The translations under genes were made by a program, and so were the position numbers. The notes under the pieces were generated by a model. The model searched no databases, was not told where the DNA came from, and was given only the letters and a program-made list of their open reading frames with translations. A stretch of 64,000 nt of DNA. It comes from a virus. Below, in pieces: positions 26,856 to 55,698 of this stretch. Each line of letters opens with the position of its first letter. Position 1 is the stretch's first letter. The DNA lies in the IMG/VR virus record IMGVR_UViG_3300042474_000251, positions 1 through 64,000 of that record; one strand, given 5' to 3'.

Positions 26856-29800
26856 ATGAACGTTTGTCATAACCCCAATACTCCTGAGTTTAAAAGTCTA
26901 TTAGAAATTTATAAAAGTTCTGATTTTGTTCAGGTACTTATTAATTTATATAATGAAGATGTAGATAGTACTGAAATTGTTATTCCTACAACTCTTCAAG
27001 TAGCTGATATGTTACTAACTAGAAAAAAAGTTTTTAATAATAAAAAGAAAGACTTTTCAGAAAAAGTAATGATTAATCTACAGAAATTAGGTTTTATAAC
27101 TAAAGTAAAAAATAACTGGATTATAAAAAAGAATATAACTAATTTAGATGCTAATACTAATGATGCTATAATTCAAAATGCTATTTTATCTTATTTAGAT
27201 TTTTTAGGATTTGATTCTAAATTGGTATCTTTTGATGCTCAGGGTACAGTAACAAAAGTTAATATTAATCCAAAACGTATTAGTATAGAACAAATGACCC
27301 CTAATACTAATACTAAAAATACTGTTAGTATTATTAATCATTTTGCAGATGTATTTCCTCAACTTAAAATAAAAGTAGTTACAGCAGAAGAAGCATTAGA
27401 GATTTATAGTAAAGCTGCAGATTTAGCTAAGTTAAATGTAAATTTTGATGATGTAAAAAGTTTTTATACTAATGGTACAGCTTATCTTATTAATGGTAGA
27501 TTTAATGATAACACTGCTATTGAAGAAATTATGCACCCCTTTGTTGATGCTTTATATGCAGACAACTCTGATTTGTTTAATGGTTTATTAGAGGATGCTA
27601 AAAAGAGTTATCCCAAAATTGTTGAACAAGTAAATATTGCATATAATGCTAGATCTAATTTTGATCTTAAGACCAGAGGTTTAGAAATAGTAACAAAGGC
27701 ACTTGCTAATCATATTAATAAACAGTACGAGCTAGGGGCCCCTATTGATACATTTACTAATAAAGTAAATCAATTCTTTAAATGGTTTGCTAGTATACTA
27801 AATAAATTACTTTCTGCAATAAGTGCCGGTAAGTTAGTAGTATCTCCATCTGAAATAGATAAAGCTACAAGCTTATCTGAAATAGCTGATATGGTACTTA
27901 CTAAAAATGTTAAATTTAATTTTGATATTATACCTAGTGATCTAAGATTATCAATTGAGCCTAAGTTAAGACCAGCTATAGAAAAAATTAAGGGTACTGC
28001 TAATCCTTTACAACAAAAAATTATTGACGATTTAGTATTAAATGATCCTCAGCAACTTGTTCTTTATAAAAATGTTGTTACTAAAGATGGTAATACCAAA
28101 AAACATATTTACATAAGTGAAGCAACTGGTCAAGCGTATACTTCTGTTACTACAGCTATTAAAGGTACTATGGCTTCAGAACAAGAAGAAAAAAATGCAA
28201 TAACATTATTGTTTGGTAATCAAGCGGATGCTATGTTAGAGGGATTAGCTGCTGGATTATCTTTTGAAGAGTCTTTTGTTGAAGCAGGAAATATGGTTAA
28301 ACTTTTAAGTTTAAAACGTTTTCAAGAAGGTAAAGGGTTTGTAAAAGGTATACCAAAAGAAATATTAGAAGAGATCTATAATAAGCTTAATGAATTAATA
28401 CATGATCCTGAGTTTATTGATGAAGGTGCTGTTATTATTCCTCAGATTATTGTTGGTGATTATAATTCTGGAATAGCTGGTTCAATAGATTTATTAGTAA
28501 TTAATACAGATGGTAGTTTAGAAGTTATTGATCTTAAGGCAAGTACTAATAGTATTAATAAAACCAGAGAGCTAAACAATGGTACTGTAGTTAAAACATA
28601 TTCTGATATAAAATATCCACAAGCTCCAGATTCTTTATTAACCGAAGGTACAGAACTTTCTACAAAAGCTCAGCAAGGTATACAGGTTAGTACTTATAGA
28701 AGACTTTTACAAAATTTAAATTACACAGTAAAAAACTCTAGAACAATCCATATACATTTAAAAACAGAAGGTGAAGGTAATAATAGAGAGGTTGTTGCGT
28801 ATGAGTATGAAGGTAGTGTAAATCATAGTATATCAGATAATGATGTATATGTTGATCAGTTAGTAGAGTCTAATGATTCACCAGGCAATAAGTTTAATCC
28901 TAACTATATTAGAAGTAGAGAATTTATTGATAAAGAGGCAATGGCTTCTTTAGAAGAATCACCAGAGACAGAAGATCTACAGTTATTACCGGCCTTAGAT
29001 AAGATAATTGTTAAGTTATCTACTCGTAAACAGATGCTACAACGTATGTTTACAGACATTAAAGGATTTAAGAATAAAACCGAAAGTATAAATAAGCTTA
29101 GTCAATTGCTTAATAGTATGGAGACTGATATTAATCAGACTCAATACAATGAAGCACTTGGTAAATTACTACGTTATACTGAAGAGGATATCAATGATTT
29201 CTTTAAGTATTTAGATAATCCTAATAACTTTAAATCTAAATCTTTTGCTACAGTACTATTAGCTTATGATAAGTTCTTAGAGACTTATAATGATATTGGT
29301 TTAGCTGTAGATTTAGGTAGTCCTGGCAATCAAGCTAAGGGTAAAAAGATACGTGAGATGCTTAAAGAAGCAAGAGAACGTATTGATAAGAGCTATATAA
29401 CTTTTGCGGAATCATTTGTAAGAGAGAATAGTACCAATCCTGATCTTACTGAAGAGGATATTAAAGCAATGCTCGTTAGTACTATTGATGAAGGAACTGT
29501 AGATACAGTTTTAAATTCTTTAGGTGCTTCTACAGATACATTGTTACAGTTAATTAATAAGATATACAAAAGAGGTTTAGCTAAATCTCAGTATGACTTA
29601 GAAGAGTTTACCAATACTGCTTACAGTGCGGGTAATAAACTAGTTGAAGAATCTGTTAAGGCCGGAATAAAAGCAGAAGATGCATTTCTATACATGTTTG
29701 CTAAAAATCCTGATGGTAAACTTAATGGTAGATATGTAAACAGAATTGGTTATCAGTACTGGAAAATGTTTTATGATTTAAAAGAGAAGACTACTGATGA

Positions 29801-32261
29801 AAATGGTGCTCCTTTAAAGTATAAAGTTATTCAAGATCCTGTTAAACAACAAACCGATGTACAATATAACATAGATTTATATAAAGCTAAAAAAGCCTTA
29901 TCGGAATTTTTAAGAGCTGAAGAATCTGGTGATGCTAGACCTGAAGATGGTGAATTTCATAAGTATACAGAAGAGTTTAAAGCACAACGTACAAAGTATG
30001 AGACATATACTAAATGGGGTTGGAAAAAGAAACCAGGTGTAGATCCTTTAGCTTATAGTTTATATCAAGATAAATATAAGAACAAGATTACTAGTACTAG
30101 AGATGTAATTGGTCCAGATGGTATCTTTATTGGAGATACTAAAACTACAGTTAGTTACATTGTTAAAAGAGATTATGTAGAAATAAAAAATGTATCCTCT
30201 AATAATATGAATCTTCAAGATCCTGAGTATTTAAAAATCATGAATCCTGTTGATGCATTAGGTAGAGCAAGAAAAGAATTTTATGAGTTCTTTATTAAAG
30301 AGCATCAAGAAGAATCTTTATCCATGCTTCCCCCAGATATCTATTATAGAATGATGGGTAAAATGCCAAGGGTACAAAAGAATTTCTTAAGGAAGCTTAA
30401 AGATATGCCTGAAGGTAGAGGTGAGTATGTATTACAATCATTAAAGAACTTTGTATTTAAAAAGAAAAAGGTATATGCTAAAGTAGCAATTGAAAACGAG
30501 GCCGGTGAATTAATACAAGGACCACCTATTTTCTATACTGCAGATTTACAGTCTCAATATAGAGTAGATAAGTTAAAAGAGCAGATAGAACAGTTACGTG
30601 CTGATAGAGACTCTAAAAAAATTAGTATTAAAGATTACTTAGAGAAGAAGGAAAACTTAGATAGGATTCTTAAAGTAGAGGAATCTAAATTAACTCCAGA
30701 TCAGATTAATACAAACTTAGTAGAGAGTATGATTTTATTCCGCGGTATGGCTGAAAATTATAGAAGGATGAATGAAATAGAAGATACTATCATGGTTATC
30801 CAAAAAGTAATTGAAGACAGGGAGTATATACCACCAGGAGGTGTTGCTAGTAAAATTAAAACTGCAGTTGGTGGTAATAGAGATTATACACAGAAAGGTG
30901 GTAGTAATGTAGAAAAACGTTTACGTAAGTGGATGGAAATGACCTTTAGAGATGAAGGTGCATTTGAAGAAACTGTAGGTGAACAATACATTAAAGCTAT
31001 TCTTAACTATACATCATTAACATATGTGGGTTTTAACCCATTCAGTGCATTGAATAACTTAATTATGGGTAAGATTAACAATGCTATTGAAACAGCTGGT
31101 GGTCAGTTTTACAATAGAGCAGCAATTATGCGGGCTACTGCTGCACTTAATACAGAAGCAATGCCGGGATTTATGCGTCAGTTAGCTAAGAAAAAACCTG
31201 GTGCACTTAAATCTTCTCCTGAAGAGTATGAATTATCAAAACCAGAATCTAAGTATGAGGCTATGGTTAAATTTTTTAAAGTTATCAGGGGTATGCAATC
31301 ATCAGAAGGTAAAGTTGATATGTTTAGTTTTGCCTATTTAATGTCAGAAGGTGGTGAATATGCTATTCAAAGTAAGACAGCAATTGCCAAATTAATGTCT
31401 CAGCAATTAGTTAATGAAAAAAGCGGTGAGTCTACCTCTATTTATGATGCATTTAACTTTGATGAAGTCACTGGTAAACTAATTCTTAAAGACGGTTATA
31501 AGTTTACTGCTACAGATAGAGCTGATGTAACTAACTCTATTTGGAGAATGAATGAGATGATACATGGTAACTATGCTTATGAAGATAGAACTATTGTACA
31601 AAATCATTTTGTTGGTCAGTTAGCTATGCAATTCCACAAGTGGGTTTATCCTGGTCTTAAAATAAGATTTGGTAAAGGTAGATATGATGAAGCTACTCAA
31701 GTTTGGATGGAAGGTAGATATAATACTATATTTAGTTTTTTAAAGTATTTCTATAATGTCAAAGGTGGTATAATAGAAAGATTTCAAGAATCTAAAGGTA
31801 TGCTAAGAGAAGAGCAAGTTGCAAACATGTATAAAGTGTTAGCTGAAATTGGTTTCTTCTTGGCTTCAGTTGCAATGTATCAAATGTTTGAAGCATTAAG
31901 AGATGCTACAGGAGATGATGATGATGATAAAGAATTAAAAAGATTACTAGGTGTACTACAATATCAAGCTTCTAAACAACAAAAAGAGTTAGCAACTTAT
32001 ATTTTGCCAGGAGAATATGTACGTGTAATGACTAACCCTATTGCAGCTAGTAGATCTCTTGGTGAATTTTCTGAGGCTATAGGATTTACACTTGATTATT
32101 TTAGTCCTTTTGTACCTGAAGAAAAGAAATACTATCAGAGAACAGATAGAAAAGGTGAACCTAAGTATTACAAACAATGGGGTGATGTAGCCCCTATTCT
32201 ATATGAAATAAATAGATGGAAGAGTTATGATACAGTAGAAGATTTTTATGTGAAGAAATAA
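26856..32261 (+). CDS. Giant virion-type protein with PD-(D/E)XK-like nuclease motif
   Basis: Predicted protein of 1,801 residues. Near 223-234 the segment EEIMHPFVDALY looks like a decayed zincin helix in which the HExxH pattern is lost. Around 530-565, GIAGSIDLLVINTDG followed by EVIDLKAS has the spacing of a PD-(D/E)XK nuclease core (D, then D-x-K). A preceding QAYTSVTTAIKG fits the N-terminal helix of such domains. The C-terminal 200 residues are helical with a hydrophobic section (EIGFFLASVAMYQMF) and an acidic DDDDD run near 1690. The gene follows the RNA-polymerase giant with a promoter-like element between them. Ejection with the polymerase and a nuclease role are inferred. Confidence 0.75.
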   Translation: MNVCHNPNTPEFKSLLEIYKSSDFVQVLINLYNEDVDSTEIVIPTTLQVADMLLTRKKVFNNKKKDFSEKVMINLQKLGFITKVKNNWIIKKNITNLDANTNDAIIQNAILSYLDFLGFDSKLVSFDAQGTVTKVNINPKRISIEQMTPNTNTKNTVSIINHFADVFPQLKIKVVTAEEALEIYSKAADLAKLNVNFDDVKSFYTNGTAYLINGRFNDNTAIEEIMHPFVDALYADNSDLFNGLLEDAKKSYPKIVEQVNIAYNARSNFDLKTRGLEIVTKALANHINKQYELGAPIDTFTNKVNQFFKWFASILNKLLSAISAGKLVVSPSEIDKATSLSEIADMVLTKNVKFNFDIIPSDLRLSIEPKLRPAIEKIKGTANPLQQKIIDDLVLNDPQQLVLYKNVVTKDGNTKKHIYISEATGQAYTSVTTAIKGTMASEQEEKNAITLLFGNQADAMLEGLAAGLSFEESFVEAGNMVKLLSLKRFQEGKGFVKGIPKEILEEIYNKLNELIHDPEFIDEGAVIIPQIIVGDYNSGIAGSIDLLVINTDGSLEVIDLKASTNSINKTRELNNGTVVKTYSDIKYPQAPDSLLTEGTELSTKAQQGIQVSTYRRLLQNLNYTVKNSRTIHIHLKTEGEGNNREVVAYEYEGSVNHSISDNDVYVDQLVESNDSPGNKFNPNYIRSREFIDKEAMASLEESPETEDLQLLPALDKIIVKLSTRKQMLQRMFTDIKGFKNKTESINKLSQLLNSMETDINQTQYNEALGKLLRYTEEDINDFFKYLDNPNNFKSKSFATVLLAYDKFLETYNDIGLAVDLGSPGNQAKGKKIREMLKEARERIDKSYITFAESFVRENSTNPDLTEEDIKAMLVSTIDEGTVDTVLNSLGASTDTLLQLINKIYKRGLAKSQYDLEEFTNTAYSAGNKLVEESVKAGIKAEDAFLYMFAKNPDGKLNGRYVNRIGYQYWKMFYDLKEKTTDENGAPLKYKVIQDPVKQQTDVQYNIDLYKAKKALSEFLRAEESGDARPEDGEFHKYTEEFKAQRTKYETYTKWGWKKKPGVDPLAYSLYQDKYKNKITSTRDVIGPDGIFIGDTKTTVSYIVKRDYVEIKNVSSNNMNLQDPEYLKIMNPVDALGRARKEFYEFFIKEHQEESLSMLPPDIYYRMMGKMPRVQKNFLRKLKDMPEGRGEYVLQSLKNFVFKKKKVYAKVAIENEAGELIQGPPIFYTADLQSQYRVDKLKEQIEQLRADRDSKKISIKDYLEKKENLDRILKVEESKLTPDQINTNLVESMILFRGMAENYRRMNEIEDTIMVIQKVIEDREYIPPGGVASKIKTAVGGNRDYTQKGGSNVEKRLRKWMEMTFRDEGAFEETVGEQYIKAILNYTSLTYVGFNPFSALNNLIMGKINNAIETAGGQFYNRAAIMRATAALNTEAMPGFMRQLAKKKPGALKSSPEEYELSKPESKYEAMVKFFKVIRGMQSSEGKVDMFSFAYLMSEGGEYAIQSKTAIAKLMSQQLVNEKSGESTSIYDAFNFDEVTGKLILKDGYKFTATDRADVTNSIWRMNEMIHGNYAYEDRTIVQNHFVGQLAMQFHKWVYPGLKIRFGKGRYDEATQVWMEGRYNTIFSFLKYFYNVKGGIIERFQESKGMLREEQVANMYKVLAEIGFFLASVAMYQMFEALRDATGDDDDDKELKRLLGVLQYQASKQQKELATYILPGEYVRVMTNPIAASRSLGEFSEAIGFTLDYFSPFVPEEKKYYQRTDRKGEPKYYKQWGDVAPILYEINRWKSYDTVEDFYVKK

Positions 32262-32267
32262 TAAAAA

Positions 32268-32288
32268 AGGGGAGTTTTTAGCTCCCCT
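32268..32288. terminator. Strong hairpin, terminator for the small minus-strand gene and likely end of the giant-gene transcript
   Basis: AGGGGAG (32268-32274) pairs perfectly with CTCCCCT (32282-32288). On the minus strand the stem is followed by TTTTTT, a classical intrinsic terminator 5 bases after the small gene ending at 32294. On the plus strand the hairpin lies 6 bases after the stop of the 1,801-residue protein but lacks a following T run. Confidence 0.7.
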
Positions 32289-32293
32289 CAATC

Positions 32294-32464
32294 TTAAAAC
32301 ATTCTAAATCTAATTTGTAGGAATAGTAAACCTATTCTGAATTCCGTACATGCCGTTAGGTATGCTTCTTCTGTTTTTTCTGGATGTGGTAAAATCATCC
32401 GTTCATAAGCTATCCCAAACATTATACTTGCTGGGGATAGTAATTCTATAGTTAGTTGTTTCAT
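32294..32464 (-). CDS. Small minus-strand protein, 56 aa, in the gap between the virion and lysis blocks
   Basis: An ATG-started reading frame of 56 codons on the minus strand, not a shadow of any plus-strand gene. Reading it gives an N-terminus MKQLTIELLSPASIMFGIA and a C-terminus ending LLFLQIRFRMF. A TAAATTTG promoter element sits 14 bases upstream (32479-32486), and a strong hairpin with a T run follows 5 bases after the stop. Composition is ordinary for this phage (mixed hydrophobic and charged residues). I do not recognise a family. The combination of promoter, frame and terminator is the evidence. It would be an isolated single-gene transcription unit running against its neighbours. 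Confidence 0.65.
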   Translation of the reverse strand: MKQLTIELLSPASIMFGIAYERMILPHPEKTEEAYLTACTEFRIGLLFLQIRFRMF

Positions 32465-32478
32465 TTTCTAATTGTATT

Positions 32479-32486
32479 CAAATTTA
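32479..32486 (-). promoter_or_regulatory. Minus-strand -7 element TAAATTTG
   Basis: Read on the minus strand, this is TAAATTTG, matching TAnnTTTG, and lies 14 bases before the ATG of the 56-residue gene. The rest of the 314-base region 32262-32575 holds only that gene, its terminator and the two short hairpins described separately. Confidence 0.5.
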
Positions 32487-32515
32487 AGTAATTTTCACTA
32501 TATTATATATGTAGT

Positions 32516-32574
32516 ACCCTAAAAACCATCTAGGGCTGCATCCCGAATCAACTGCGGTAAAAAAATTTATACCG
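32516..32574 (+). promoter_or_regulatory. Two short hairpins in the leader of the lysis block
   Basis: CCCTA (32516-32520) pairs with TAGGG (32531-32535). CGGTA (32555-32559) pairs with TACCG (32570-32574), the latter ending one base before the ATG at 32576. The second stem would enclose an A/T-rich loop and hold the start codon close to a helix, which could affect translation of the holin-like gene. Pairing is seen; function is inferred. Confidence 0.35.
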
Positions 32575-32575
32575 T

Positions 32576-32824
32576 ATGAAACTATTAAACTTTATTGGTG
32601 GTCTTTTCAAAGATGAAAAAGGCTCCGTTTCCATGAAGCGCCTGTGTGGCTTAGTCTGCACTTTAACTCTTTGCGCTACTCTGTATGCTAACTCTTTTAC
32701 TGAAGCACACTTTGCTCCATCTGTACCCTTAGTGGATGCAGTTGCATTGCTTGCATTTGGTTGTTTAGGTTTGACTTCTGTTGAGAAAATCATGAAGAAG
32801 CCAGAAGCTAACACTGAGGAGTAA
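32576..32824 (+). CDS. Holin-like small membrane protein
   Basis: Predicted protein of 82 residues with a short charged N-terminus (LFKDEKGSVSMKRL) and two hydrophobic segments, about 24-42 (LCGLVCTLTLCATLYAN) and 50-66 (VDAVALLAFGCLGL), with a charged C-terminus. Size and topology fit a two-helix phage holin that would open the inner membrane for the endolysin. It is first in the block and directly precedes the endolysin-like gene, the usual order of a lysis cassette. The sequence itself is not diagnostic, so the call rests on topology and position. Confidence 0.6.
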   Translation: MKLLNFIGGLFKDEKGSVSMKRLCGLVCTLTLCATLYANSFTEAHFAPSVPLVDAVALLAFGCLGLTSVEKIMKKPEANTEE

Positions 32825-32861: not shown

Positions 32862-33449
32862 ATGAGCTATACTAGAGAACAAATTGAGGCTGCAATGAAA
32901 GCCAAAGGCTACAAGTACTTTGAGAATGGTGACTTCAATGTAAACATCATTGGTGTACGTAATTCTTCTACTGGTAACAAAGTAACCAATGTATTTGATG
33001 ATCACTTAACTCTTTCTTACAAAGAAAATGGTGAGTGGAAATTTAAAATTTGGCCTGCTACAACTGATCCCGGAACTAAGGGTGTTAAAGAATTTCACAA
33101 TGCTGCTGGTGTTGCACGTTTAGTGCCCGGTCAATATTCTGGTTCACATCATGTAGGATTACACCAAGGTAAGTATGAAGCGTTAAAGCAAAAGGCAAAC
33201 GTAAAGGTTTACCGTGATGCTAACAAAGACATGACTTATGATGAATCTAAGATACAAGAAGGCATCTTCGGTATTAACATTCATAAAGCTGGTGCAGATT
33301 CTACTTACGTGGAGAACTGGTCTGAAGGCTGTCAAGTGTTCAAGAAGTCTGCTGACTTTGATGCATTCATGGCAATCTGTAAAAAAGCTGCTACATTGGG
33401 TGGTAACTCTTTTACCTATACTCTTATTGAGTCTAAAGACATTAAATAA
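32862..33449 (+). CDS. Endolysin-like protein with L,D-transpeptidase-type H...S-x-G-C motif
   Basis: Predicted protein of 195 residues without a signal peptide. FGINIH ending at H141, then S154, G156 and C157 (NWSEGCQVF), gives the H-x(n)-S-x-G-C arrangement of YkuD-type L,D-transpeptidase active sites. The N-terminal half (IIGVRNSSTGNKV, FDDHLTLSYKENGEW) looks like proteins annotated as lysins in Bacteroidota phages. Lying 37 bases after a holin-like gene, it most likely acts on peptidoglycan during lysis. Whether it cleaves or crosslinks cannot be told from sequence. A tandem repeat precedes the start. Confidence 0.6.
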   Translation: MSYTREQIEAAMKAKGYKYFENGDFNVNIIGVRNSSTGNKVTNVFDDHLTLSYKENGEWKFKIWPATTDPGTKGVKEFHNAAGVARLVPGQYSGSHHVGLHQGKYEALKQKANVKVYRDANKDMTYDESKIQEGIFGINIHKAGADSTYVENWSEGCQVFKKSADFDAFMAICKKAATLGGNSFTYTLIESKDIK

Positions 33450-44322: not shown

Positions 44323-44352
44323 CAAATATAATCAGTTTTTTATTTCTTCAAA
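44323..44352 (-). promoter_or_regulatory. Minus-strand promoter for the GroES-like gene
   Basis: On the minus strand TTTG (44352-44349), 18 bases, then TATATTTG (44330-44323). Geometry matches Bacteroidota promoters. The -33 element overlaps the 3' end of the DnaA-like gene. Confidence 0.6.
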
Positions 44353-44826
44353 CAATTTCTTTGTTTTATTATATATTTCTATTTCTTTTTTGTAGTACTC
44401 TGGATATGTATGCCAGTCTTCTACATTTCTAATAGCATGTATAATAGTTGCATGATGTTGATTACCAATTGTTTTTCCAATAAATTGTAGTGTTTTACCT
44501 TCTAGTCTAAGTATATGAATAATCACATACCTAGGTATAATGTAATCTCTTTTGCGGGACTTACTTAATATCTCTTTAGCGGATACACCTGTTACAGAAT
44601 GCAGTATATTACAAAGCAGGGGTATAACATTGTCTGTTAATTCCTTTTTAGGTGAGAGAGTAATACGTAGATGTAATAACTTTACTCCGTAATCTTTCTT
44701 TACCTTTTGTAATTCAGTACTGTGTTCTTCCTTGATCTTAATAAGTTGTTCCTCTTTTCTTCTAAGTGCTAATTTTAAATTATGCACCTGGATCTTTAAT
44801 GTTTCTTTTTCATTAAGGGTTGACAT
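44332..44826 (-). CDS. DnaA domain IV-like DNA-binding protein with coiled-coil
   Basis: Predicted protein of 164 residues. Residues about 5-55 form a charged coiled coil (LRRKEEQLIKIKEEHSTELQ). About 80-140 (VSAKEILSKSRKRDYIIPRY, then IGKTIGNQHHATIIHAIRNV) match the helix-turn-helix and HHAT-x-HA signature of DnaA domain IV. The AAA+ domain of DnaA is absent. It overlaps the upstream gene by 14 bases. Likely a sequence-specific DNA-binding protein recognising origin-like boxes; the target is unknown. Confidence 0.7.
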   Translation of the reverse strand: MSTLNEKETLKIQVHNLKLALRRKEEQLIKIKEEHSTELQKVKKDYGVKLLHLRITLSPKKELTDNVIPLLCNILHSVTGVSAKEILSKSRKRDYIIPRYVIIHILRLEGKTLQFIGKTIGNQHHATIIHAIRNVEDWHTYPEYYKKEIEIYNKTKKLFEEIKN

Positions 44827-45064
44827 AGATTTTTCTTAGTTTTTTCTCAATCTCTACTTCTATAGCTTCTGTACCAGGTGGTTTTACTTGCGGCCAAACT
44901 ACACTACAAGTAACAGATTGTTGTAGATGATCTATTCTAAGTGTGCATGAGAAAGGATAGGGTGTTAAATCTATCTCATCTTCCCATGCATCCTTAGTTA
45001 TGTAAGTACCATTGTGAATAAAGACCTCAGTCTTGTGAATCGGTTGTTTTTCTATATTAATCAT
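44813..45064 (-). CDS. Small protein of unknown function, translationally coupled to PolB
   Basis: Predicted protein of 83 residues from the ATG at 45064, which overlaps the PolB stop as ATGA; a longer upstream start would run into PolB. The C-terminal part is TCSVVWPQVKPPGTEAIEVE, then EKKLRKIY. No family is recognised. Coupling to PolB suggests a replication-linked job, which is an inference. Confidence 0.65.
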   Translation of the reverse strand: MINIEKQPIHKTEVFIHNGTYITKDAWEDEIDLTPYPFSCTLRIDHLQQSVTCSVVWPQVKPPGTEAIEVEIEKKLRKIYVNP

Positions 45065-47043
45065 AAGTTTAGTTCTAGTTGTTGGTAAGCTATCTTTTCT
45101 GGACATACATTCATAATTTCACGTATTGCATTGTTAATATAATAATCATAGTTGATATCATAACCATCCCAATCTTTTTTATCTAACTTATTCAATGTAG
45201 TCTGCAACCATCTACCTGATTCTACTTGTATGATTCTACCATCTCTGTGTTGTTTTAGTATCTTACAACCCTTATTAGAGATATAGTATCTCACTATTTT
45301 CTGTAATGGTTCTGTTATGAGCACACCCTTAATCATGCAGTTACTTGTAAATCTCCAATCACCTTTTGCTTTTATACCACCACAGAAGTCAACTATGCTT
45401 TTAGATTCCAGAATAGTCTTATCTACCGGGGTATTAAATACAAAGTAATTATAGAGCGCCTTTCTGATGATTAAGAAAGATTTATTCTTATGTAATGCTA
45501 AATGGTGAAACTCAAATCTACCTTTACACTTTACCGGAGAATAACCATTATCAGTATAAACATAATAGGGCTCATCTTCTTTAAGACTAATTAGAGTCTC
45601 TTGATCTGCTTCCCTGTGGGTATTTATACCAATGTAATTGTTTACATCACCAATAATCATCTTCTGATACTGGTCATGTTCTAGTGCTAGCTGAGTGATT
45701 GTTTCCCATTCAGAACATATCTCAAGATATTTTGCTTTATGTTCTTCAGGTATCATCATCTCTAGACCATCTGTATTCTGCATGATGGGAATAGAACCGG
45801 GTATACCCTCTGCTATCATCTCATAAAGCATACATAGACTTAGCTGACCATTAATAGTAATACGCATGGTAAACTCAGGATCATACAGAAAGCTATTCTT
45901 ATCATTGCTAAGGCCATAAGTACTATTCAAGATGATCTTGTATACATAGTTCTTTGGATCTTTCTTAGGGATCTTCTTACGCTCTGTAAAGAACCACTCA
46001 TACTGCTCACAGAATTCTTCTTTAGGAAGATGAGCTGGGGCCCATTTATTCTTAATAGCTAGGTTAGGATAATAACTTACAACATCTGATGACATTATTA
46101 TCATACCATTCTTGGCTTCAAAGATTCCGGAACGTGCACCATGTAAACCGCCTAGACCAAAGTCAGTTTGCATACCTTTATAAGTTACACTATGAGCAAA
46201 CCCGCCTTTAGTTTCTTTAGGGTCTAACTCAATAGTTCTAAACTTATCTAGCAGCGCCTGCAACTCTGGTGTTTTAAACTTCACATAGTCTAGAATGATA
46301 TCATTTACTTTGATAAGAGTTCTGTTAGTTCTAAGACCGTTGAGCTCATAACTACTAATCCCGGTAGCTTTAGATAAGAAATACTTAAATAGTTCTTTAG
46401 ATATCCTTGGCTCACTAGCACTGTACAGGTTAATACCATATTCTTTTGTAAGTACACCACGTAAAGCAATCTGAGATTTACTATACTCCATTATCTTCTT
46501 GGTGAACTTTACATCATTTCTACAGTAGCTTAGTACCATCTCTTGTTTTTCAATAGTATCTATGCTATCACTATGATGTATGGGCATCTCCTCTACATTG
46601 TGCCAATCTAATGTGTACTCCAACCATTTAAGGCTAGAGCTTTTAGCCGGATTGTCCCAGTGATTAAGTTTAAATAAATCTATCTGGTTAATCTTTAATT
46701 GTTTGTGACTATACAAAGCAAACTCGCCATTATTCTTTCTATAGATAATATCTTGCGCTACTTTATATAGTTTATCTGTAATTTGTGCAGAATCTAGTGC
46801 AATAAGTTCTTGAGCATGATCAATGATGTACTGTATTACTTGTGCATCAAAGTCAAGACCATTAAAACTGATATGCCATTCCTCACTTTTAATGTTCTCA
46901 TTAATAAAATCTACTAGTTTTTTAATCTGATTCTCTTTAAAGGATATTACAAATTCTGTTACAGACTCTTCTTTATAGTGCTCAAATACAGCACAGAAGA
47001 AATCTGACATAGTTTCTATATCCATTACCCAATGTCTTTTCAT
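45061..47043 (-). CDS. Family B DNA polymerase
   Basis: Predicted protein of 660 residues. The 3'-5' exonuclease motifs are D8-I-E10, NGLDFD near 61-66 and YCRND (173-177). The polymerase motifs are SDVVSYYPNL (motif A, D320), KIILNSTYGLSND (motif B, K369 and N373) and QNTDGLEM (motif C, T424-D425). A GGLHGA segment near 298 lies between the exonuclease and palm. The order fits a compact family B replicative polymerase, as found in some crAss-like phages; no TPR insertion is obvious. A strong terminator precedes the gene by about 9 bases, so expression may depend on read-through. Genes for primase, helicase and SSB-like protein lie upstream on the same strand. Confidence 0.88.
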   Translation of the reverse strand: MKRHWVMDIETMSDFFCAVFEHYKEESVTEFVISFKENQIKKLVDFINENIKSEEWHISFNGLDFDAQVIQYIIDHAQELIALDSAQITDKLYKVAQDIIYRKNNGEFALYSHKQLKINQIDLFKLNHWDNPAKSSSLKWLEYTLDWHNVEEMPIHHSDSIDTIEKQEMVLSYCRNDVKFTKKIMEYSKSQIALRGVLTKEYGINLYSASEPRISKELFKYFLSKATGISSYELNGLRTNRTLIKVNDIILDYVKFKTPELQALLDKFRTIELDPKETKGGFAHSVTYKGMQTDFGLGGLHGARSGIFEAKNGMIIMSSDVVSYYPNLAIKNKWAPAHLPKEEFCEQYEWFFTERKKIPKKDPKNYVYKIILNSTYGLSNDKNSFLYDPEFTMRITINGQLSLCMLYEMIAEGIPGSIPIMQNTDGLEMMIPEEHKAKYLEICSEWETITQLALEHDQYQKMIIGDVNNYIGINTHREADQETLISLKEDEPYYVYTDNGYSPVKCKGRFEFHHLALHKNKSFLIIRKALYNYFVFNTPVDKTILESKSIVDFCGGIKAKGDWRFTSNCMIKGVLITEPLQKIVRYYISNKGCKILKQHRDGRIIQVESGRWLQTTLNKLDKKDWDGYDINYDYYINNAIREIMNVCPEKIAYQQLELNL

Positions 47044-47057
47044 AGTTTTAGAAAAAA

Positions 47058-47081
47058 AAGGGGGACTATTACATCCCCCTT
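47058..47081 (-). terminator. Intrinsic terminator just before PolB
   Basis: AAGGGGGA (47058-47065) pairs perfectly with TCCCCCTT (47074-47081). On the minus strand the stem is followed by a run of eight T. It ends the transcript of the gene stopping at 47114, and lies within 10 bases of the PolB ATG at 47043. Confidence 0.8.
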
Positions 47082-47113
47082 AATTGTTGGTTTATATGGC
47101 AATCCTCAAGACC

Positions 47114-47506
47114 CTATACTTGAGTTGGACCCGTGATTCCTACTGATTCTTTTTCCAAGATACTAAAGTTAAAAGTATCATGATTCATTGCAAATTTAGC
47201 AATGATATCTAAGATCTCTTCTTTCTTATGTATATAATACTCTTGGAAAGACTCAACCAGTCTTCTCTCTTCCGCGTAACTTTTCTCTGGATTCTTTCTA
47301 TTCTTAGTAAATACTACATCACCTTTATCATCCATTCTAGGAATCATATGGTAAGCATCTTTAATAATTTTTGAGATGATAACCAACATGCTTGCTTCTG
47401 GATCATAAATCATTTCTACATAAGGACAAGTTTCTACTAAAGGTATAACTTTAAAACTCTCCTGACCGTTCCATACGGAACTAATACATAACATACTATC
47501 TTTCAT
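47114..47506 (-). CDS. Conserved-type phage protein of unknown function
   Basis: Predicted protein of 130 residues starting at the ATG at 47506 (a GTG lies 6 bases earlier). A hydrophobic-alternating N-terminal half (LCISSVWNGQESFKVIPL, ASMLVIISKIIKDAYHM) precedes a charged C-terminal half (SYAEERRLVESFQEYYIHKK). No domain is recognised. It lies 9 bases after the preceding gene and is followed by an intrinsic terminator. Confidence 0.7.
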   Translation of the reverse strand: MKDSMLCISSVWNGQESFKVIPLVETCPYVEMIYDPEASMLVIISKIIKDAYHMIPRMDDKGDVVFTKNRKNPEKSYAEERRLVESFQEYYIHKKEEILDIIAKFAMNHDTFNFSILEKESVGITGPTQV

Positions 47507-47515
47507 ATACACAAA

Positions 47516-48076
47516 TCAAATAATTAAATCTTTCATTTCCAAATTCTCTACAGGTATTTTAAGTGTTTCTTTTTCAGCGTTATAAGGAGCACATAATTCT
47601 CCAACGCCTTTTAGGATATTTACATTGACTCCTAACAGCTCTGCATAGATATCAAAATAGTCTTCAGGGTATAGATAGCTCATCACGTACTCATAAGTAC
47701 TAGAGTCTTTACCATAGAATCTTTCAATCTCATCTTTTGCAGCATCAGACAGTTGAGAATATTTACCCTTTACAAATTTATCCCAGTCATAAGCTCGGTC
47801 ATCAAATGTAAAAATATAAATACCCTTGTTATCTGTAGTCTGTCTAAACTCACAGAACTTATCATTACCAAACAACTTAACCCTCTCAAAGATTTGATAG
47901 TCTTCATTATCTTGTATATCATAAACGCAAATAAGTTTTCTATCAGTAGGAGATACAATCTCTTCCCATGCAATGTAAGTCTGTATGGGTTTGATATGAC
48001 TGCCTCTTCTAATGTTTAGTGCCGGGTATAAGAATATCCGGGATTTCTGTGTGTACTTGTCATGTAATTTTTTCAT
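47516..48076 (-). CDS. Protein of unknown function in the replication operon
   Basis: Predicted protein of 186 residues, rich in Tyr and acidic residues (EWD, DDRAYDWDKF, YLYPEDYFDIY). No motifs I can name. Its ATG overlaps the stop of the upstream exonuclease gene by 4 bases (ATGA), so the two are translationally coupled and may act together in recombination. Confidence 0.7.
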   Translation of the reverse strand: MKKLHDKYTQKSRIFLYPALNIRRGSHIKPIQTYIAWEEIVSPTDRKLICVYDIQDNEDYQIFERVKLFGNDKFCEFRQTTDNKGIYIFTFDDRAYDWDKFVKGKYSQLSDAAKDEIERFYGKDSSTYEYVMSYLYPEDYFDIYAELLGVNVNILKGVGELCAPYNAEKETLKIPVENLEMKDLII

Positions 48077-49047
48077 AGTATTATTTTGTTTACAATATAC
48101 TCATAAGGTAGAGAATAATCTCTATTTTCATAGTGATAATGTGCTTCATTTAGCGCTTTTCTAAATCTTTCATTCCAGTCATCCAGTGTTAACTGAGAAA
48201 CAGGAAAGCAATAAATCTGCTCATACTTGTCTACCACCACAAAAGAATACTCGTAAGTGTAATCAAGTTTTAAGAAGTGACATTTAGCTAGTAGTACATA
48301 CATTGCTGCCTGCATCCAATAGTTGTAGTACTCTACACTCTCTTTGAATTCAGGGATTGTCTTACTAGTAGTCTTAACGTCTGCTATCTTAATTACTTTG
48401 TTTACATCATCTACAATTACACTGTCAAGAATACCCTTGATACCAAACTTGTAGTCAACTAGATCACAAGCTGCTGGTAACTCTCTATGAAACTTAACAT
48501 CATCAAACTCTGTAATATCTAGACCCAAATGATATCTAACTTCCGGATTAGCTTTAAACTTAGTTACTACCCGTAAGCATTTATCATATGTGCTCTGATC
48601 AATTACAGATTTACCAATACTATTTATAAGATCAGTAAGATAGTCAGTAGTAATTGGTGTAATTACCTTGGCTAGTCTTTGCTCATCCGTTTTTAGTGTC
48701 TGGTAAAGGTTCTTTTCTATTAAAATGTTTAAGATTTCATCTTGAAAGTTAGACAAATCACTACATTCAGGGTGCTCTCTAAATATTTTATCTACAATAT
48801 CCTTAAGATTATCTGAAGGAAGTTTACTTTTAGCTACATAGAATTGATTATCATACTCATCCGGTTGTAGTAGAAGGCAGTGAATTAACCTGCCCTCTAC
48901 TAAATGTGCACCAACCGATTCTTCCTTTTGTTGGAGGATGTAATGAGTGAAGAACAATCTAGGACTAAACCTTAGTTTGCTTAGTCCTGAGTAACTAATG
49001 TAATACTTAGTTTTATAAAACTGTTCTATTAACTCTTGATCTGTCAT
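48073..49047 (-). CDS. PD-(D/E)XK exonuclease (Cas4/RecB-type family)
   Basis: Predicted protein of 324 residues. SYSGLSKLRFSPRLFFTHYI and VGAHLVEGRLIHCLLLQPDE form the N-terminal helix and first active-site region typical of RecE/Cas4-like nucleases. GIKGILDSVIV followed by KIADVKTTSKT is the D...D-x-K core. YNYWMQAAMYVLLAK matches the Q-x(3)-Y motif. Likely a 5'-3' or ssDNA exonuclease for recombination or host DNA use. It is coupled by ATGA to its neighbours on both sides. An iron-sulfur Cys cluster is not evident. Confidence 0.8.
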   Translation of the reverse strand: MTDQELIEQFYKTKYYISYSGLSKLRFSPRLFFTHYILQQKEESVGAHLVEGRLIHCLLLQPDEYDNQFYVAKSKLPSDNLKDIVDKIFREHPECSDLSNFQDEILNILIEKNLYQTLKTDEQRLAKVITPITTDYLTDLINSIGKSVIDQSTYDKCLRVVTKFKANPEVRYHLGLDITEFDDVKFHRELPAACDLVDYKFGIKGILDSVIVDDVNKVIKIADVKTTSKTIPEFKESVEYYNYWMQAAMYVLLAKCHFLKLDYTYEYSFVVVDKYEQIYCFPVSQLTLDDWNERFRKALNEAHYHYENRDYSLPYEYIVNKIIL

Positions 49048-50105
49048 TCTACTATTTTTTCTTTGTATGTTTCATTCATTTGAATTGCACTTATAGTGAA
49101 GATATTATTTTCACCATATGTTTTTACATGCTTTAGAATATCCTCTTTAAACTCAGACAGGTATTCTCTTTTAAGTTTACCACCATCTGCTAATCTACGA
49201 ACAATATCTATAATATCACCACTGTAATAGTTAGGATCAATATCCCAGTGTATAGTCATGTACTGTCTAAATGCTTTATAGTTTACATGGTTTGTACCGG
49301 GCATATTACGTAGATTAAATCTAGATATCAACTTCAAGATATATACCATAGACTGATCATAGTCACAGTTACATAGTAACTCCAAGGCAATTTCCTGATT
49401 CTGATTTGAACTAAACATACTTACTAATCTTGTATAAGATTCAGAGTTAAGTGGTTGAGAACCATTACACTGTTTCATTACATCTTTATCAGAGATGATA
49501 ACTTTAGTATTAGCTAGCAAGTCATTGATTAGTTGCTCATAAGCATCTTCTTTAAAGCGATAAGTATAAAAATGATTAGTTTCTAGACCATCTGTATTGC
49601 CAGATATAACACTATTATAGACATGATTGAGTCCTCTAAGTAATGACCAGTCTACAACAATATAACTACCTGTATCTGGATCATCTAGTTCAGGAGCACT
49701 AATATTATAAGTTTCAAACATTTGTTTTACACTATTAATAGGTATTCCCATCTCATTTCTTTTGTCTATCATTTCCTCTATAACCTGTTTCTTGTTAAAG
49801 ACTACTTTGGTTGCTTTACTTTGATTTCTTACTATATCAAAACCAATCTCTTTACCAGTTTCCCGTATTTTATACCGGGGGATGGTTACCCCCGGCATTA
49901 TAAATACTTTGTCACCAGCTACAAGACTTTGTGATGATGTATTTAATCCATCAAAGATTGTTGGATCTACAATATTAACGCTTTCTAACTTAAGAGACTC
50001 TAACAAGTCTTTATAGTTACTACTACTAAAACCATAAGGAGAATAAGTATCACCTACTTTCTTTTGAAACTTATTACCATCTATTCTTAAATACAAATTT
50101 TTCAT
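49044..50105 (-). CDS. Protein of unknown function, 353 aa
   Basis: Predicted protein of 353 residues. The N-terminus has KNLYLRIDGNKFQKKVGDTY. The centre has DTGSYIVVDWSLLRGLNHVY. A Cys pair (CNCDY) occurs near 245. No catalytic pattern is recognised. It is coupled by ATGA to the MoxR-like ATPase upstream and to the exonuclease downstream. The position suggests an adaptor between the ATPase/VWA pair and DNA processing, but this is inference. Confidence 0.7.
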   Translation of the reverse strand: MKNLYLRIDGNKFQKKVGDTYSPYGFSSSNYKDLLESLKLESVNIVDPTIFDGLNTSSQSLVAGDKVFIMPGVTIPRYKIRETGKEIGFDIVRNQSKATKVVFNKKQVIEEMIDKRNEMGIPINSVKQMFETYNISAPELDDPDTGSYIVVDWSLLRGLNHVYNSVISGNTDGLETNHFYTYRFKEDAYEQLINDLLANTKVIISDKDVMKQCNGSQPLNSESYTRLVSMFSSNQNQEIALELLCNCDYDQSMVYILKLISRFNLRNMPGTNHVNYKAFRQYMTIHWDIDPNYYSGDIIDIVRRLADGGKLKREYLSEFKEDILKHVKTYGENNIFTISAIQMNETYKEKIVE

Positions 50106-51283
50106 CGGATTGTGTACTCCATAACTTTATCGTTCAACATAAGCTTTTGAAATTTTTGCTTGTTACCATTAATAAGATTTCTTACAATCATATACTTAAG
50201 GTCAATAGCAAATATCTCATCCACCACTAATTTCTCAAAACGTTTGATTACTTCACTCTTCATAGGATTTGTTTTGAAGTGTGCCAAGGCAAAGTTTACA
50301 ATCCTAGTACTCATAATACTAGCAATGTCTGCCCGGTAATCGTCACCTCTACCAACTGTAGACTTCAAAGTGCCTATGATATAATCCTCATTGTCATGTA
50401 AGATAATGTCTTTAGGAGACATCAACTGGTCCAGTTTGTTATTGATAAACAAAGTAAACAAGCTAGTCATGTCTGCACCAACAGAACCTTCACCAATCAT
50501 TTGGATCATAGGTAGGTTATCTTCAAACTTCTCAAAGCTAGAGATAGCATTAAAGAATGTAGTAATTGCACGTGGGTTAGTAGACTCAGTAACAACTTCA
50601 GGATGCTTCAAGATGAAGTTAATACATCTACCATCCATAGCTGTTTCTTCTGCCCACTGTGCCCAACAGTCTACATCAAACTTTAAGTCACAAGAAATAA
50701 AGCGAGTAGTTTGTGCTACGTCCATACTATTTACGTGATAATCACCACCATCAGGGTTAGTAGTTAGGATGATAGTCCAGTCTTTAGGTAACTTCCATGA
50801 GATATACTCTTGAGTGTTAATCAAATCCATACAAGCCTGAATCATTCTAGGATCTGCACGAGTGTAATCATCTAATAATAAGATACCAGACTCACCTTTA
50901 CCAGAAATCCATTCAGGTGCACAATAAGCAGTGCGCCTTGCACCGGTTAGTTTAAACCCGGCCTTAACTGCTAGCTCAGCTTCCATCTCAGTTACCCACT
51001 TAGTCTTAAGACCATCAGGAGTATCTTTACCAATCTGAAATTCCTTAACTGGAAATCCTACTAGATCTGATAACTCTTCTATCATTGCAAGGTTAATTTT
51101 TACAAACTGCATACCCTCTTCTTTTGCAAGGTTAGAGACAATTGTAGTTTTACCAAGACCTGCATTACCTACTACATTCAAAGCTGTTGGTACTTTACCT
51201 TGACCTTGAATGAATCTGTTGTTGTTAATTACGTGCTTAATGAAATCTTTTAATTCAGCGCTGTTTAATTTTACTTGTGCCAT
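50102..51283 (-). CDS. MoxR-type AAA+ ATPase
   Basis: Predicted protein of 393 residues. Walker A is GNAGLGKTT (about 37-45), Walker B is GILLLDDYTRAD, and a sensor-1 region TIILTTNPDGGDYHVN follows, then a TRFISCDL segment. The order fits MoxR/dynein-like AAA+ ATPases (AAA_5). Such ATPases work with VWA-domain partners, and the next gene upstream encodes one. The pair may remodel a protein complex or act on metal or protein cofactors. The substrate is unknown. Confidence 0.82.
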   Translation of the reverse strand: MAQVKLNSAELKDFIKHVINNNRFIQGQGKVPTALNVVGNAGLGKTTIVSNLAKEEGMQFVKINLAMIEELSDLVGFPVKEFQIGKDTPDGLKTKWVTEMEAELAVKAGFKLTGARRTAYCAPEWISGKGESGILLLDDYTRADPRMIQACMDLINTQEYISWKLPKDWTIILTTNPDGGDYHVNSMDVAQTTRFISCDLKFDVDCWAQWAEETAMDGRCINFILKHPEVVTESTNPRAITTFFNAISSFEKFEDNLPMIQMIGEGSVGADMTSLFTLFINNKLDQLMSPKDIILHDNEDYIIGTLKSTVGRGDDYRADIASIMSTRIVNFALAHFKTNPMKSEVIKRFEKLVVDEIFAIDLKYMIVRNLINGNKQKFQKLMLNDKVMEYTIR

Positions 51284-51296
51284 GTTTTTAGGGTTT

Positions 51297-52436
51297 TTAA
51301 TTTAATTGGATTTGGGGACCGGGTAGTTGCTCATTGATTTGGGCTTTTGAAGAAATAACCCAAAGCATTCTACCTCTTGGTGTAACTGTTGTATAACATT
51401 CACCATCTGTTAAATAAATAAGACATGTGTATCTTTTAGTATTCTTGTTATAATATTCTAGTACGGGATCAAACTCAGTACCTCCACGGCCTTTGACTTC
51501 TACATCCTTCTTAGGGTTATAACTCTCAACACTAGTAATCTCTGTATCACACTGTAATACTGTAATCTCTGTTCCGGTTTTATGCATGTGTTTAATTTCA
51601 TTGAAGAACTCTACAAGTTCATCATTGCTCACACTACCAGATGTATCTATTGCAACCAAGATATGTTTCTTGGGTTTAAATTTCATTCCGGGAGCATCCG
51701 GATATCTTTTGTTAATCTTCTTTCTAGATAACTTAGTCTCAACAATGTAAGAGTTACCAGCAAATCTTCTCAGATAAGCTTTCCAGTTAAATTTACTTGG
51801 AGTAACTGCAGTGATTCTTTTATAAATCTCACTAATTTCTCCAGGTAAATGACCTCTAGCTTTTAGACACTCTTCTGCTGCCTCTCTAAGTTGATACTCA
51901 GCTTGAGACTTAAGTAATTTCTTTTCGGAATCACTTAGGTTATCAAACTCTTCCCATGTAGGATGCATATCATCACCATTACCCATCATGTTTTGTACAT
52001 CTTCATCATCTTGATTCTTTTGTAGCATATCATAATAGTATTTAGTACCTGCTTTATAATCAAGTCCCAAGTTAGGAAATGAACTAGGTAGAATAGCACC
52101 GTCTGGAAGACAGCTTGGAGTAATATACTGATTAAGCTCACAGTCAGCAGCTATGTTAAATAACTTCTTGTCTGCAAACTCATCTCGTAAGTTAAGGTGA
52201 TCAAATACAATATGTAAAAGCTCATGCCACAATAGACCTTTCTTGTGGTCATGTGGTAGACTAGCCCAGAAATCTGAGTTAATCACAAGCTTATAATTAA
52301 TGTTGTGTTTGCTTACACCAGCAGTTGGAATTCTGTTATTCCATTCTTTGTTAAGACCTATCAAGAACATACCATAGAAGGGTTGTTCAAGCATAAGTTC
52401 TTTCCCGGCTAATGCCAGTTCTTCGTCTTTTCTCAT
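51297..52436 (-). CDS. VWA-domain protein with N-terminal HELLH metallopeptidase-like domain
   Basis: Predicted protein of 379 residues. HELLHIVFDH at 71-80 is a zinc site of the HExxHxxxxH type, as in DUF2201-type metallopeptidase-like domains. DTSGSVS (264-270) is a VWA MIDAS motif, with RGGTEFDPV and LTDGE later. The middle has a conserved acidic/Arg-rich section. It lies 13 bases before the MoxR-like gene, matching the known MoxR-VWA pairing. A putative protease joined to a VWA module is unusual in a phage. Confidence 0.8.
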   Translation of the reverse strand: MRKDEELALAGKELMLEQPFYGMFLIGLNKEWNNRIPTAGVSKHNINYKLVINSDFWASLPHDHKKGLLWHELLHIVFDHLNLRDEFADKKLFNIAADCELNQYITPSCLPDGAILPSSFPNLGLDYKAGTKYYYDMLQKNQDDEDVQNMMGNGDDMHPTWEEFDNLSDSEKKLLKSQAEYQLREAAEECLKARGHLPGEISEIYKRITAVTPSKFNWKAYLRRFAGNSYIVETKLSRKKINKRYPDAPGMKFKPKKHILVAIDTSGSVSNDELVEFFNEIKHMHKTGTEITVLQCDTEITSVESYNPKKDVEVKGRGGTEFDPVLEYYNKNTKRYTCLIYLTDGECYTTVTPRGRMLWVISSKAQINEQLPGPQIQLN

Positions 52437-52449
52437 AGTAAGTTTGGGT

Positions 52450-52710
52450 TTAAAGTTTTGTAATCTTATCCAGTTCCTCTAAAAACTGAAATGCTAATTC
52501 TTCTTCCTGATCTATAAATGAGCCTGTAACATTTCTCTTAGAGAAATAATCATTTACAATCTTGATCACATGAGAGTTCTTAGCTTTTGCCTCGTTTACA
52601 GATTTTTTAAGTTCTGGATTTACAAGTTCTCTAATAAACTGATACTGCACATTAAGTGCTTTAGCTAATATATAAGCCTTTCTAATTTCTTTTAAATCTG
52701 ATTCCTTCAC
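52450..52710 (-). CDS. Small protein of unknown function
   Basis: Predicted protein of 86 residues starting at a GTG at 52710, which overlaps the stop of the previous gene (GTGA). A TTG 27 bases earlier would extend it less plausibly. It is helical (KESDLKEIRKAYILAKALNV, EEELAFQFLEELDKI). No family is recognised. Confidence 0.6.
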   Translation of the reverse strand: MKESDLKEIRKAYILAKALNVQYQFIRELVNPELKKSVNEAKAKNSHVIKIVNDYFSKRNVTGSFIDQEEELAFQFLEELDKITKL

Positions 52711-52934
52711 ACAATCTCTGCTACAGGGTCTGTCCAACCATTTGCATCATTTACACCACTAACATAGGCTTCTGCTTCTTTCTTGGTATCAAATTCTTTA
52801 ATACCATAATCATAGTCTTCCTGCATTGATTCATGTTTATTACTAAACAATGCATCCCAACCATGAATGTCTACATAAAGAGCTGCAGCTTGACTAAAAG
52901 CGTACATTACCTTAATCTTCTTTTTTACTTCCAT
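52707..52934 (-). CDS. Small protein of unknown function
   Basis: Predicted protein of 75 residues with a Lys-rich N-terminus (VKKKIKVMYAFSQAA), then an acidic section (EDYDYGIKEFDTKKEAEAYV) that suggests a SPOR-like or ferredoxin-like fold, not proven. It overlaps the RusA-like gene by 10 bases and is coupled by GTGA to the next small gene. Confidence 0.6.
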   Translation of the reverse strand: MEVKKKIKVMYAFSQAAALYVDIHGWDALFSNKHESMQEDYDYGIKEFDTKKEAEAYVSGVNDANGWTDPVAEIV

Positions 52935-53302
52935 TTCTTTAGGATTTTAATTTCAACTCTTGGGTTTTTATTATCATACTCATAAGTAGCAAATACCGGC
53001 ACTAGTTCATCAGCGTTATCATCATCTATCCAATCATAGTTTACCATTGCATCTTGTACAGCTTGTGCTATGTTAATCAAGTCAAACTTATGTCTGCTCT
53101 TTCTATAGAACTTAAACTCTATATACAATGGTTTACCAAGATCTTTAGATTCTTTTCTAAACTGCTTGGCTTGTGCTTTCCAGTGCTCATCAGTAGCAAG
53201 TTTCCACTTTCTTGTTGCTGCACTTGCAATACTGTATCTGCCTGTCCATACTCTACCATTCTTACTAGATGGTGTGTTACCCGGTATGATAAATGTTGTC
53301 AT
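52925..53302 (-). CDS. RusA-like Holliday junction resolvase
   Basis: Predicted protein of 125 residues. IPGNTPSSKNGRVW and KFDLINIAQAVQDAMVNYDW followed by IDDDNAD give the RusA fold, with the conserved acidic cluster of the catalytic site. It cleaves four-way DNA junctions in replication and recombination. The start overlaps the primase end by 26 bases. It is short but of normal length for RusA. Confidence 0.8.
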   Translation of the reverse strand: MTTFIIPGNTPSSKNGRVWTGRYSIASAATRKWKLATDEHWKAQAKQFRKESKDLGKPLYIEFKFYRKSRHKFDLINIAQAVQDAMVNYDWIDDDNADELVPVFATYEYDNKNPRVEIKILKKWK

Positions 53303-54266: not shown

Positions 54267-54280
54267 AACTGCAATAATAA

Positions 54281-54308
54281 AAAAGGGGGACCATATAATC
54301 CCCCTTTT
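54281..54308. terminator. Bidirectional-looking intrinsic terminator
   Basis: AAAAGGGGG (54281-54289) pairs with CCCCC (54300-54304) and TTTT (54305-54308). On the minus strand the stem is followed by TTTTTT; T-rich sequence follows on plus as well. It separates the SSB-like gene from the primase gene, so SSB-like transcripts may end here. Confidence 0.75.
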
Positions 54309-54327
54309 ATATAATAAACTTTAAAAC

Positions 54328-55008: not shown

Positions 55009-55013
55009 GGTTA

Positions 55014-55697: not shown

Positions 55698-55698
55698 A

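Follow-up and report, generated by a model that had tools for sequence, protein, structure and literature searches.

The window analysed here is the whole stretch of 64,000 nucleotides, corresponding to bases 1-64000 of a 67,233-base viral record. Two plus-strand genes, one ending at 32261 and the next starting at 32576, leave a 314-nt gap at 32262-32575, in which an initial annotation had placed a 56-codon minus-strand frame. This frame was recovered to the base and is referred to below as the small gene. The features of the region are as follows.

26856-32261, plus strand: giant gene (1801 aa), convergent to the small gene and related to crAss001 gp49 ('putative RNA-polymerase subunit')
32263-32289, minus strand: predicted intrinsic terminator, with a GC-rich hairpin at 32289-32267 and a T6 run at 32268-32263
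32294-32464, minus strand: small gene encoding a 56-aa protein, ATG start and TAA stop (evidence from the ORF, dN/dS, family and AlphaFold2)
32479-32486, minus strand: TAAATTTG, putative sigma-A type -7 box (consensus TAnnTTTG)
32498-32511, plus strand: degenerate copy of the GTATATTATATATG element found ahead of plus-strand genes, belonging to the divergent lysis cassette and not to the minus-strand gene
32576-32824, plus strand: divergent neighbour encoding an 82-aa holin-like protein (called so by reading its sequence; named by no tool)
32862-33449, plus strand: endolysin-like gene, following the 82-aa holin-like gene
44332-58211, minus strand: leftward block of DNA polymerase, exonuclease, AAA ATPase, HNH endonuclease, primase and helicase genes

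Using tblastn, relatives of the giant gene were found in cr55_1, cr1_1, cr85_1, crAss001 and other Crassvirales (48 records, 24-30% identity), and based on this gene the phage is assigned to the crAss-like phages (Crassvirales). The frame of the small gene alone is weak evidence for a gene, since 139 of 5,000 dinucleotide shuffles of the gap held an ATG ORF of at least 56 codons. The decisive evidence was its conservation in relatives. Compared with a 69% identical relative at the same place (locus L001), which retains both the terminator and the TAnnTTTG motif, the dN/dS ratio was 0.25. Among 13 pairwise comparisons, each offering only some 35 synonymous sites, dN/dS was 0.09-0.31 in 11 and not computable in two due to saturated dS. 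When the relatives were checked for stop codons, none was found in the family matches except for one TAG at the edge of the L106/G019 match. As such, comparison with the relatives indicates that the frame is a genuine protein-coding gene under purifying selection.

The strong hairpin and the six T residues previously described directly after the stop codon were both found. The hairpin consists of eight pairs, five of them G-C, with a loop of seven, and folds at -13.5 kcal/mol (z -2.6). In 18 kb, 21 terminator-like sites were counted, this hairpin among them, where 7.0 were expected; its arrangement, a GC-rich stem-loop with a T run behind it on the same strand, is that of an intrinsic terminator. 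Among 27 adjacent-type loci (26 relatives and the window), a leftward hairpin with a T run was located at the stop of the small gene in 21, compared with 0.2 expected from base-composition shuffles, and no leftward terminator was found in the other six; in 20 of the 27, the site was terminator-like on the plus strand too. The T run ends at 32263, and the stop codon of the giant gene occupies 32259-32261. The predicted transcript thus ends just before that codon, and the gene, although it had been called antisense, is convergent to the giant gene and not antisense to its coding sequence. It is well supported that the hairpin and T6 run end a transcript of ~210 nt, and the hairpin would halt leftward transcription before the giant gene. 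In the operon-type loci, the stop codon of the small gene is positioned in or beside the hairpin loop; in L093, L101, L102, L103, L109, L110, L140 and L167, the hairpin extends over the 3' end of the small gene, placing the stop codon in or close to the loop. Two more hairpins of the form GGGGGA...TCCCCC with long T runs, built like the small-gene terminator, are present within the replication block, between minus-strand genes and on their strand, upstream of 45061-47043 and 53277-54266.

On the other side of the gene, TAAATTTG was confirmed 14 nt upstream of the ATG. This octamer fits the -7 box of the Bacteroidetes sigma-A promoter (TAnnTTTG, refined TAHHTTTG), for which the accessible parts of PMC9723704 and PMC6847099 give the consensus and a position of -12 to -5. 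A -33 box (TTTG/TTG) was absent at the usual spacing, and by eye no TTG was seen in the 48 nt before the -7 box. Across the whole window TAnnTTTG was not enriched (83 found, 88 expected). Within 40 nt upstream of genes, the motif was found for 7 of 50 listed genes compared with 1.03 expected and a maximum of 5 in 2,000 mononucleotide shuffles, where the gene list was our own selection from the ORF table and the shuffles preserve base content only. The identical octamer also precedes the genes starting at 12106 and 26856, the two largest plus-strand genes of the phage. Ahead of small genes, a TAnnTTTG motif was present in the window, L001, L003, L041, L090 and L091, separated from the ATG by 8-14 nt and varying at the two free positions; no exact copy was found near the start in the isolated relatives L084, L089, L094, L095 and L106. 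In L003 and L091 the element reads TAGATTTG, with a G at the first free position that the refined consensus TAHHTTTG disfavours, as far as the accessible part of PMC6847099 states it. Furthermore, the DNA of L003 and the window is 96% identical over 425 nt starting inside the promoter, while their small proteins are 16% alike. Because the promoter-region DNA is shared, the motif of L003 is not an independent witness, and the lysis cassette may have been exchanged, carrying the promoter stretch along.

Based on the box positions, we infer a transcription start near 32474 and a leader of about 10 nt, and it is well supported that a host sigma-A type -7 box starts the predicted ~210-nt transcript. 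Considering the signals and their conservation together, the view that the gene possesses promoter-like and terminator elements of its own and runs against the local flow was borne out, and we are highly confident that it is real and constitutes its own transcription unit. With respect to timing, the virion RNA polymerase (vRNAP) is assigned to early and middle genes and the host polymerase to late genes in the accessible text of a review (PMC10136315), while that of PMC8375218 describes both middle and late genes as dependent on the host polymerase. A host-type promoter fits late transcription by the host polymerase at least as well as early expression. Since the box is of the host type, 'early' is not what the promoter suggests under either published scheme.

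The intergenic region also includes elements of the divergent lysis cassette. The TATAATATAC element upstream of the minus-strand gene was considered as its promoter and dropped, as the element is read from the plus strand (11/12). Between the minus-strand gene and the lysis gene, GTATATTATA is oriented with the plus-strand genes in 11 of 12 tandem cases; one case is oppositely oriented, and one is listed as '+-' owing to a shadow ORF. It was observed 22-69 nt before plus-strand genes in L005, L006, L030, L042, L095, L128, L129, L131, L138, L148 and L158, and is a candidate promoter of these phages. Of 188 relatives found for the 82-aa holin-like gene, 80 were kept, and about 60 of the fetched viral contigs share the gene at 79-99% protein identity. 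Its leader (32500-32578) is common to those contigs whose upstream genes differ. Because gene and leader are shared in spite of the differing upstream genes, the lysis cassette looks like an exchanged module. Right before the ATG of the 82-aa gene, at 32550-32578 on the plus strand, there is a CGGTA...TACCG hairpin with variable loop length, whose flanks differ between loci and which is preceded by a CCCTA...TAGGG hairpin; it is possible that these leader hairpins (z -2.0) control lysis translation. Near the endolysin-like gene, the window encodes a 630-aa phage protein (33899-35791) that carries cohesin domains together with a C-terminal sorting domain for Por (type IX) secretion. In L001, a 228-aa ORF (1224-1910, minus strand) without a counterpart in the window is located between the endolysin-like gene and the next gene, and was judged by eye to be GIY-YIG homing-endonuclease-like.

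To follow the small gene in related phages, as had been proposed, we fetched 80 loci with the giant gene as the only query, leaving the small gene out of the selection. On the strand opposite to the giant gene, these loci contain small ORFs, mostly 8-41 nt beyond its stop, which form a family of ~51-68 aa proteins encoded across from the 3' end of this giant gene in other crAss-like viral contigs. HMM searches of the fetched loci gave 36 strong matches and some 19 weaker ones, many of them duplicates of one contig, and an alignment of 39 sequences (A3) was assembled with divergent rows added. In a whole-record profile search one copy was found in 8 of 14 records, or in 8 of 11 without three records that were set aside (those of L005, L033 and L019, chosen as lysis-gene carriers and having another giant-gene type), and a second search found one copy in 32 of 39. 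In total, the family is present as a single copy in 40 of 50 crAss-like viral records, the three being set aside; two copies were never seen, and the profile search found no copy in 10, some of which are fragments. The records were picked from the loci and are mainly longer contigs. Since many rows of A3 come from the searched records, their E-values are flattered; records without an A3 row (e.g. L116, L119, L126, L141, L147 and L163) match at 1e-13 to 1e-19. Comparing sub-alignments by hhalign, the probability was 11.6 (weak) between the operon-type A4 and the distal A6, 83.4 between A1 and A6, and 95.9 between A1 and A4. We treat these proteins as a single family on the basis of the hhalign scores, the profile matches and two structure models together.

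Outside these records, tblastn against the phages collection gave no relative (three chance-level matches at E 3 to 5), and none of 178 candidate stretches that were retrieved from genome_contigs with the pattern of one sub-group encodes a relative of that sub-group. The profile search of crAss001, cr55_1, cr4_1, bajarodcaudo virus 1 and Lbo-JY46 was negative in all five, an empty answer that proves little.

When the position of the small gene was scored in 81 distinct giant-gene rows, it was adjacent to the giant gene in 31, distal (0.7-2.9 kb) in 17 and absent from the fetched flank in 33, at least seven of which carry it elsewhere in the record (L116, L119, L141, L142, L147, L150 and L163). 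On the giant-gene tree, adjacency required 4 changes, compared with 24.8 when shuffled, and in the clade of the window (fork support 97/88) it was seen in 25 of 27 rows. Judging from copy number and tree, the family is single-copy, vertically inherited and near-core within this clade. The immediate surroundings are more variable. Of the 27 adjacent-type loci, 12 have the gene by itself next to a divergent plus-strand neighbour, 14 have it behind a leftward gene, mostly within 26 nt, and L097 allowed no call. For L003 and L041, the ORF listed as nearest is a shadow of the 82-aa plus-strand gene, and the neighbour was counted as plus. The earlier description of the gene as isolated thus holds for the window but represents a local state and not a family trait, and a single-gene unit is likewise not typical of the family.

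Leftward neighbours that were checked for Pfam domains carried cREC, MazG, dNMP kinase and spore photoproduct lyase domains. In many distal-type loci, the small gene immediately precedes a gene for a class II ribonucleotide reductase. The reductase is present in 14 of the 50 records, 11 with the small gene beside it and three (G006, G027 and G033) without a small-gene match. It was rejected as a partner, as the small gene is found in 40 of the 50 and a link holding in only 14 is not a general one. The common picture is that the small gene edges a leftward nucleotide-metabolism block where this meets the giant gene or a divergent plus-strand gene. In many relatives, the leftward block starts directly past the giant gene and has the small gene as its last member, and based on the relatives it is likely that leftward operons of nucleotide-metabolism and DNA-repair genes commonly end with the small gene. 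In four named crAss-like or similar genomes, leftward genes face the giant gene or its next neighbour. The convergent layout resembles the crAss001-type middle-gene block, in which leftward nucleotide-metabolism and replication genes converge on the giant-gene region (accessible part of PMC8375218), with the difference that the profile search detected no member of the small family in the five named genomes. In the window, a plus-strand lysis/tail segment separates the giant gene from the leftward block, and therefore the small gene stands alone and would need its own promoter.

To characterize the product, we modelled the window protein using AlphaFold2, which gave a four-stranded antiparallel sheet (pLDDT 89.3, pTM 0.65). 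The strand order was unchanged in a model from the distal-only alignment (pLDDT 83.6, pTM 0.62). Searches of Pfam, PHROGs, NCBIfam, PADLOC and PDB sequences gave no credible match. The best matches of single family members were NF006693 at 0.033, PF11683 at 0.036 and phrog_26641 at 0.043, that of the window protein was phrog_25694 at 0.095, and no match in Pfam, PHROGs or NCBIfam reached a curated cut-off or a convincing E-value. The PADLOC scan, whose library holds defence and not counter-defence proteins, and the PDB sequence search were empty, the PDB fold search had no match at E 0.001, and Rfam yielded no family at gathering score and two sub-threshold matches. In BFVD, phage proteins mostly of 44-71 aa (A0A6J5NRS0, A0A7S9XH27 and others) resemble the model over nearly the whole length with Foldseek probabilities up to 1.00 and TM-scores up to 0.74, whereas their identity is mostly 14-28%, the best E-value is 7.5e-3 with none at or below 1e-3, and the entries are uncharacterised or unnamed. 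The model can also be superposed on the beta sheet of PAS/LOV domains (VIA-align 2; 50-52 residues, rmsd 2.3-2.6, Z up to 4.3). The PAS fold comprises a five-stranded sheet with flanking helices and a ligand pocket, whereas the small protein is half the size, has a helix-free four-strand model and shares 2-10% identity. At such a low Z the likeness may reflect only a common sheet arrangement, and kinship with PAS-like sheets was not adopted with a Z of about 4. The family was not found described in the openly licensed literature searched (crAss-like promoters, small proteins and related terms). This is a family of small, predicted all-beta proteins absent from the curated libraries searched and, as a kind, an ordinary uncharacterised phage family.

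Several explanations of the locus were weighed against these data. The initial annotation had considered an early regulator or anti-defence protein, which would be a small factor inhibiting a host enzyme or the immune system during early takeover. The small size, compact fold and separate transcription unit would suit such a factor, as would the restriction to viral contigs in the searches made and the lack of the gene in some records. However, the PADLOC scan lends it no match, the host-type promoter is common to the giant plus-strand genes, and single-copy presence in most records together with adjacency in nearly all rows of the clade points to a core gene and away from accessory counter-defence. 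Considering the host sigma-A promoter and the core-gene pattern, the proposal was not supported, and we regard it as unlikely. A recent insertion is quite unlikely as well. Phage morons are single genes with their own promoter and terminator, inserted between phage genes, and the small gene resembles them in having, at the level of sequence, a promoter-like element and a terminator and in standing beside or against the late-gene flow. Some phages that share the lysis cassette are also devoid of both gene and hairpin, which would be consistent with an autonomous gene newly placed between genes adjacent in relatives, but these phages carry a distant giant gene on a long branch, and the junction differs for that reason. 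At the junction in close relatives the gene is not absent; it is near-universal and vertically inherited in the clade, and is found behind a leftward gene in about half of the relatives. A moron in the strict sense was thus rejected.

The divergent orientation and the intergenic region in common with the holin-endolysin cassette could point to a lysis-timing, antiholin-like protein. Nevertheless, the family keeps to the giant gene when leftward operon genes follow (L083, L100, L140 and others), the cassette occurs without the small gene in L005, L006, L033, L042 and L053, and the protein was modelled as all-beta, unlike antiholins, which are helical membrane proteins. The family does not track the lysis cassette, and this role was rejected as very unlikely. 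Least probable is a unit acting as RNA, in which the giant gene would be insulated or silenced by a convergent transcript with its terminator, and the ORF would be incidental. While the transcript is small and the terminator at the convergence point is conserved and in most adjacent-type loci readable on the plus strand too, the low dN/dS ratios indicate purifying selection on the protein, the family is conserved even where it is 0.7-2.9 kb away from the giant gene, the predicted transcript stops short of the giant coding sequence, and Rfam returned no family at gathering score. A cis-antisense RNA was rejected because no overlap is predicted and the protein is under purifying selection, and we consider it extremely unlikely.

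Taken all together, the explanation that we favour, with somewhat better than even confidence in it as a whole, is a small-protein gene with its own signals, an operon-end history and a protein-binding role. Transcription would start near 32474 and end near 32263, producing an RNA of ~210 nt, and the giant gene would be shielded from leftward transcription by the hairpin. The product would be a compact beta-sheet protein, probably a dimer or a subunit, working by binding another protein and acting in the replication-to-late phase, with a phage or host polymerase or a nucleotide-metabolism factor as the most plausible target. The functional class, a protein-binding factor of the replication or late phase, is a tentative suggestion held with low confidence. 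It is doubtful, and improbable at present, that the family is a conserved control protein of a large clade of environmental crAss-like phages, binding either the giant-gene product (a relative of virion RNA polymerase or cargo proteins) or the host polymerase.

Gene callers easily overlook small genes that run against the main direction. The one described here represents a single-copy, near-core family of environmental crAss-like phages and marks the convergence point of two transcription blocks. The locus indicates that the gene is kept, with its own promoter, when the surrounding block is elsewhere, and the family presents a defined target for expression, pull-down and deletion tests. If the control-protein reading were true, the protein would help the phage to switch between transcription by the virion polymerase and by the host polymerase, and such a control link would explain why the gene is often placed at the giant gene's 3' end and why each genome has one copy.
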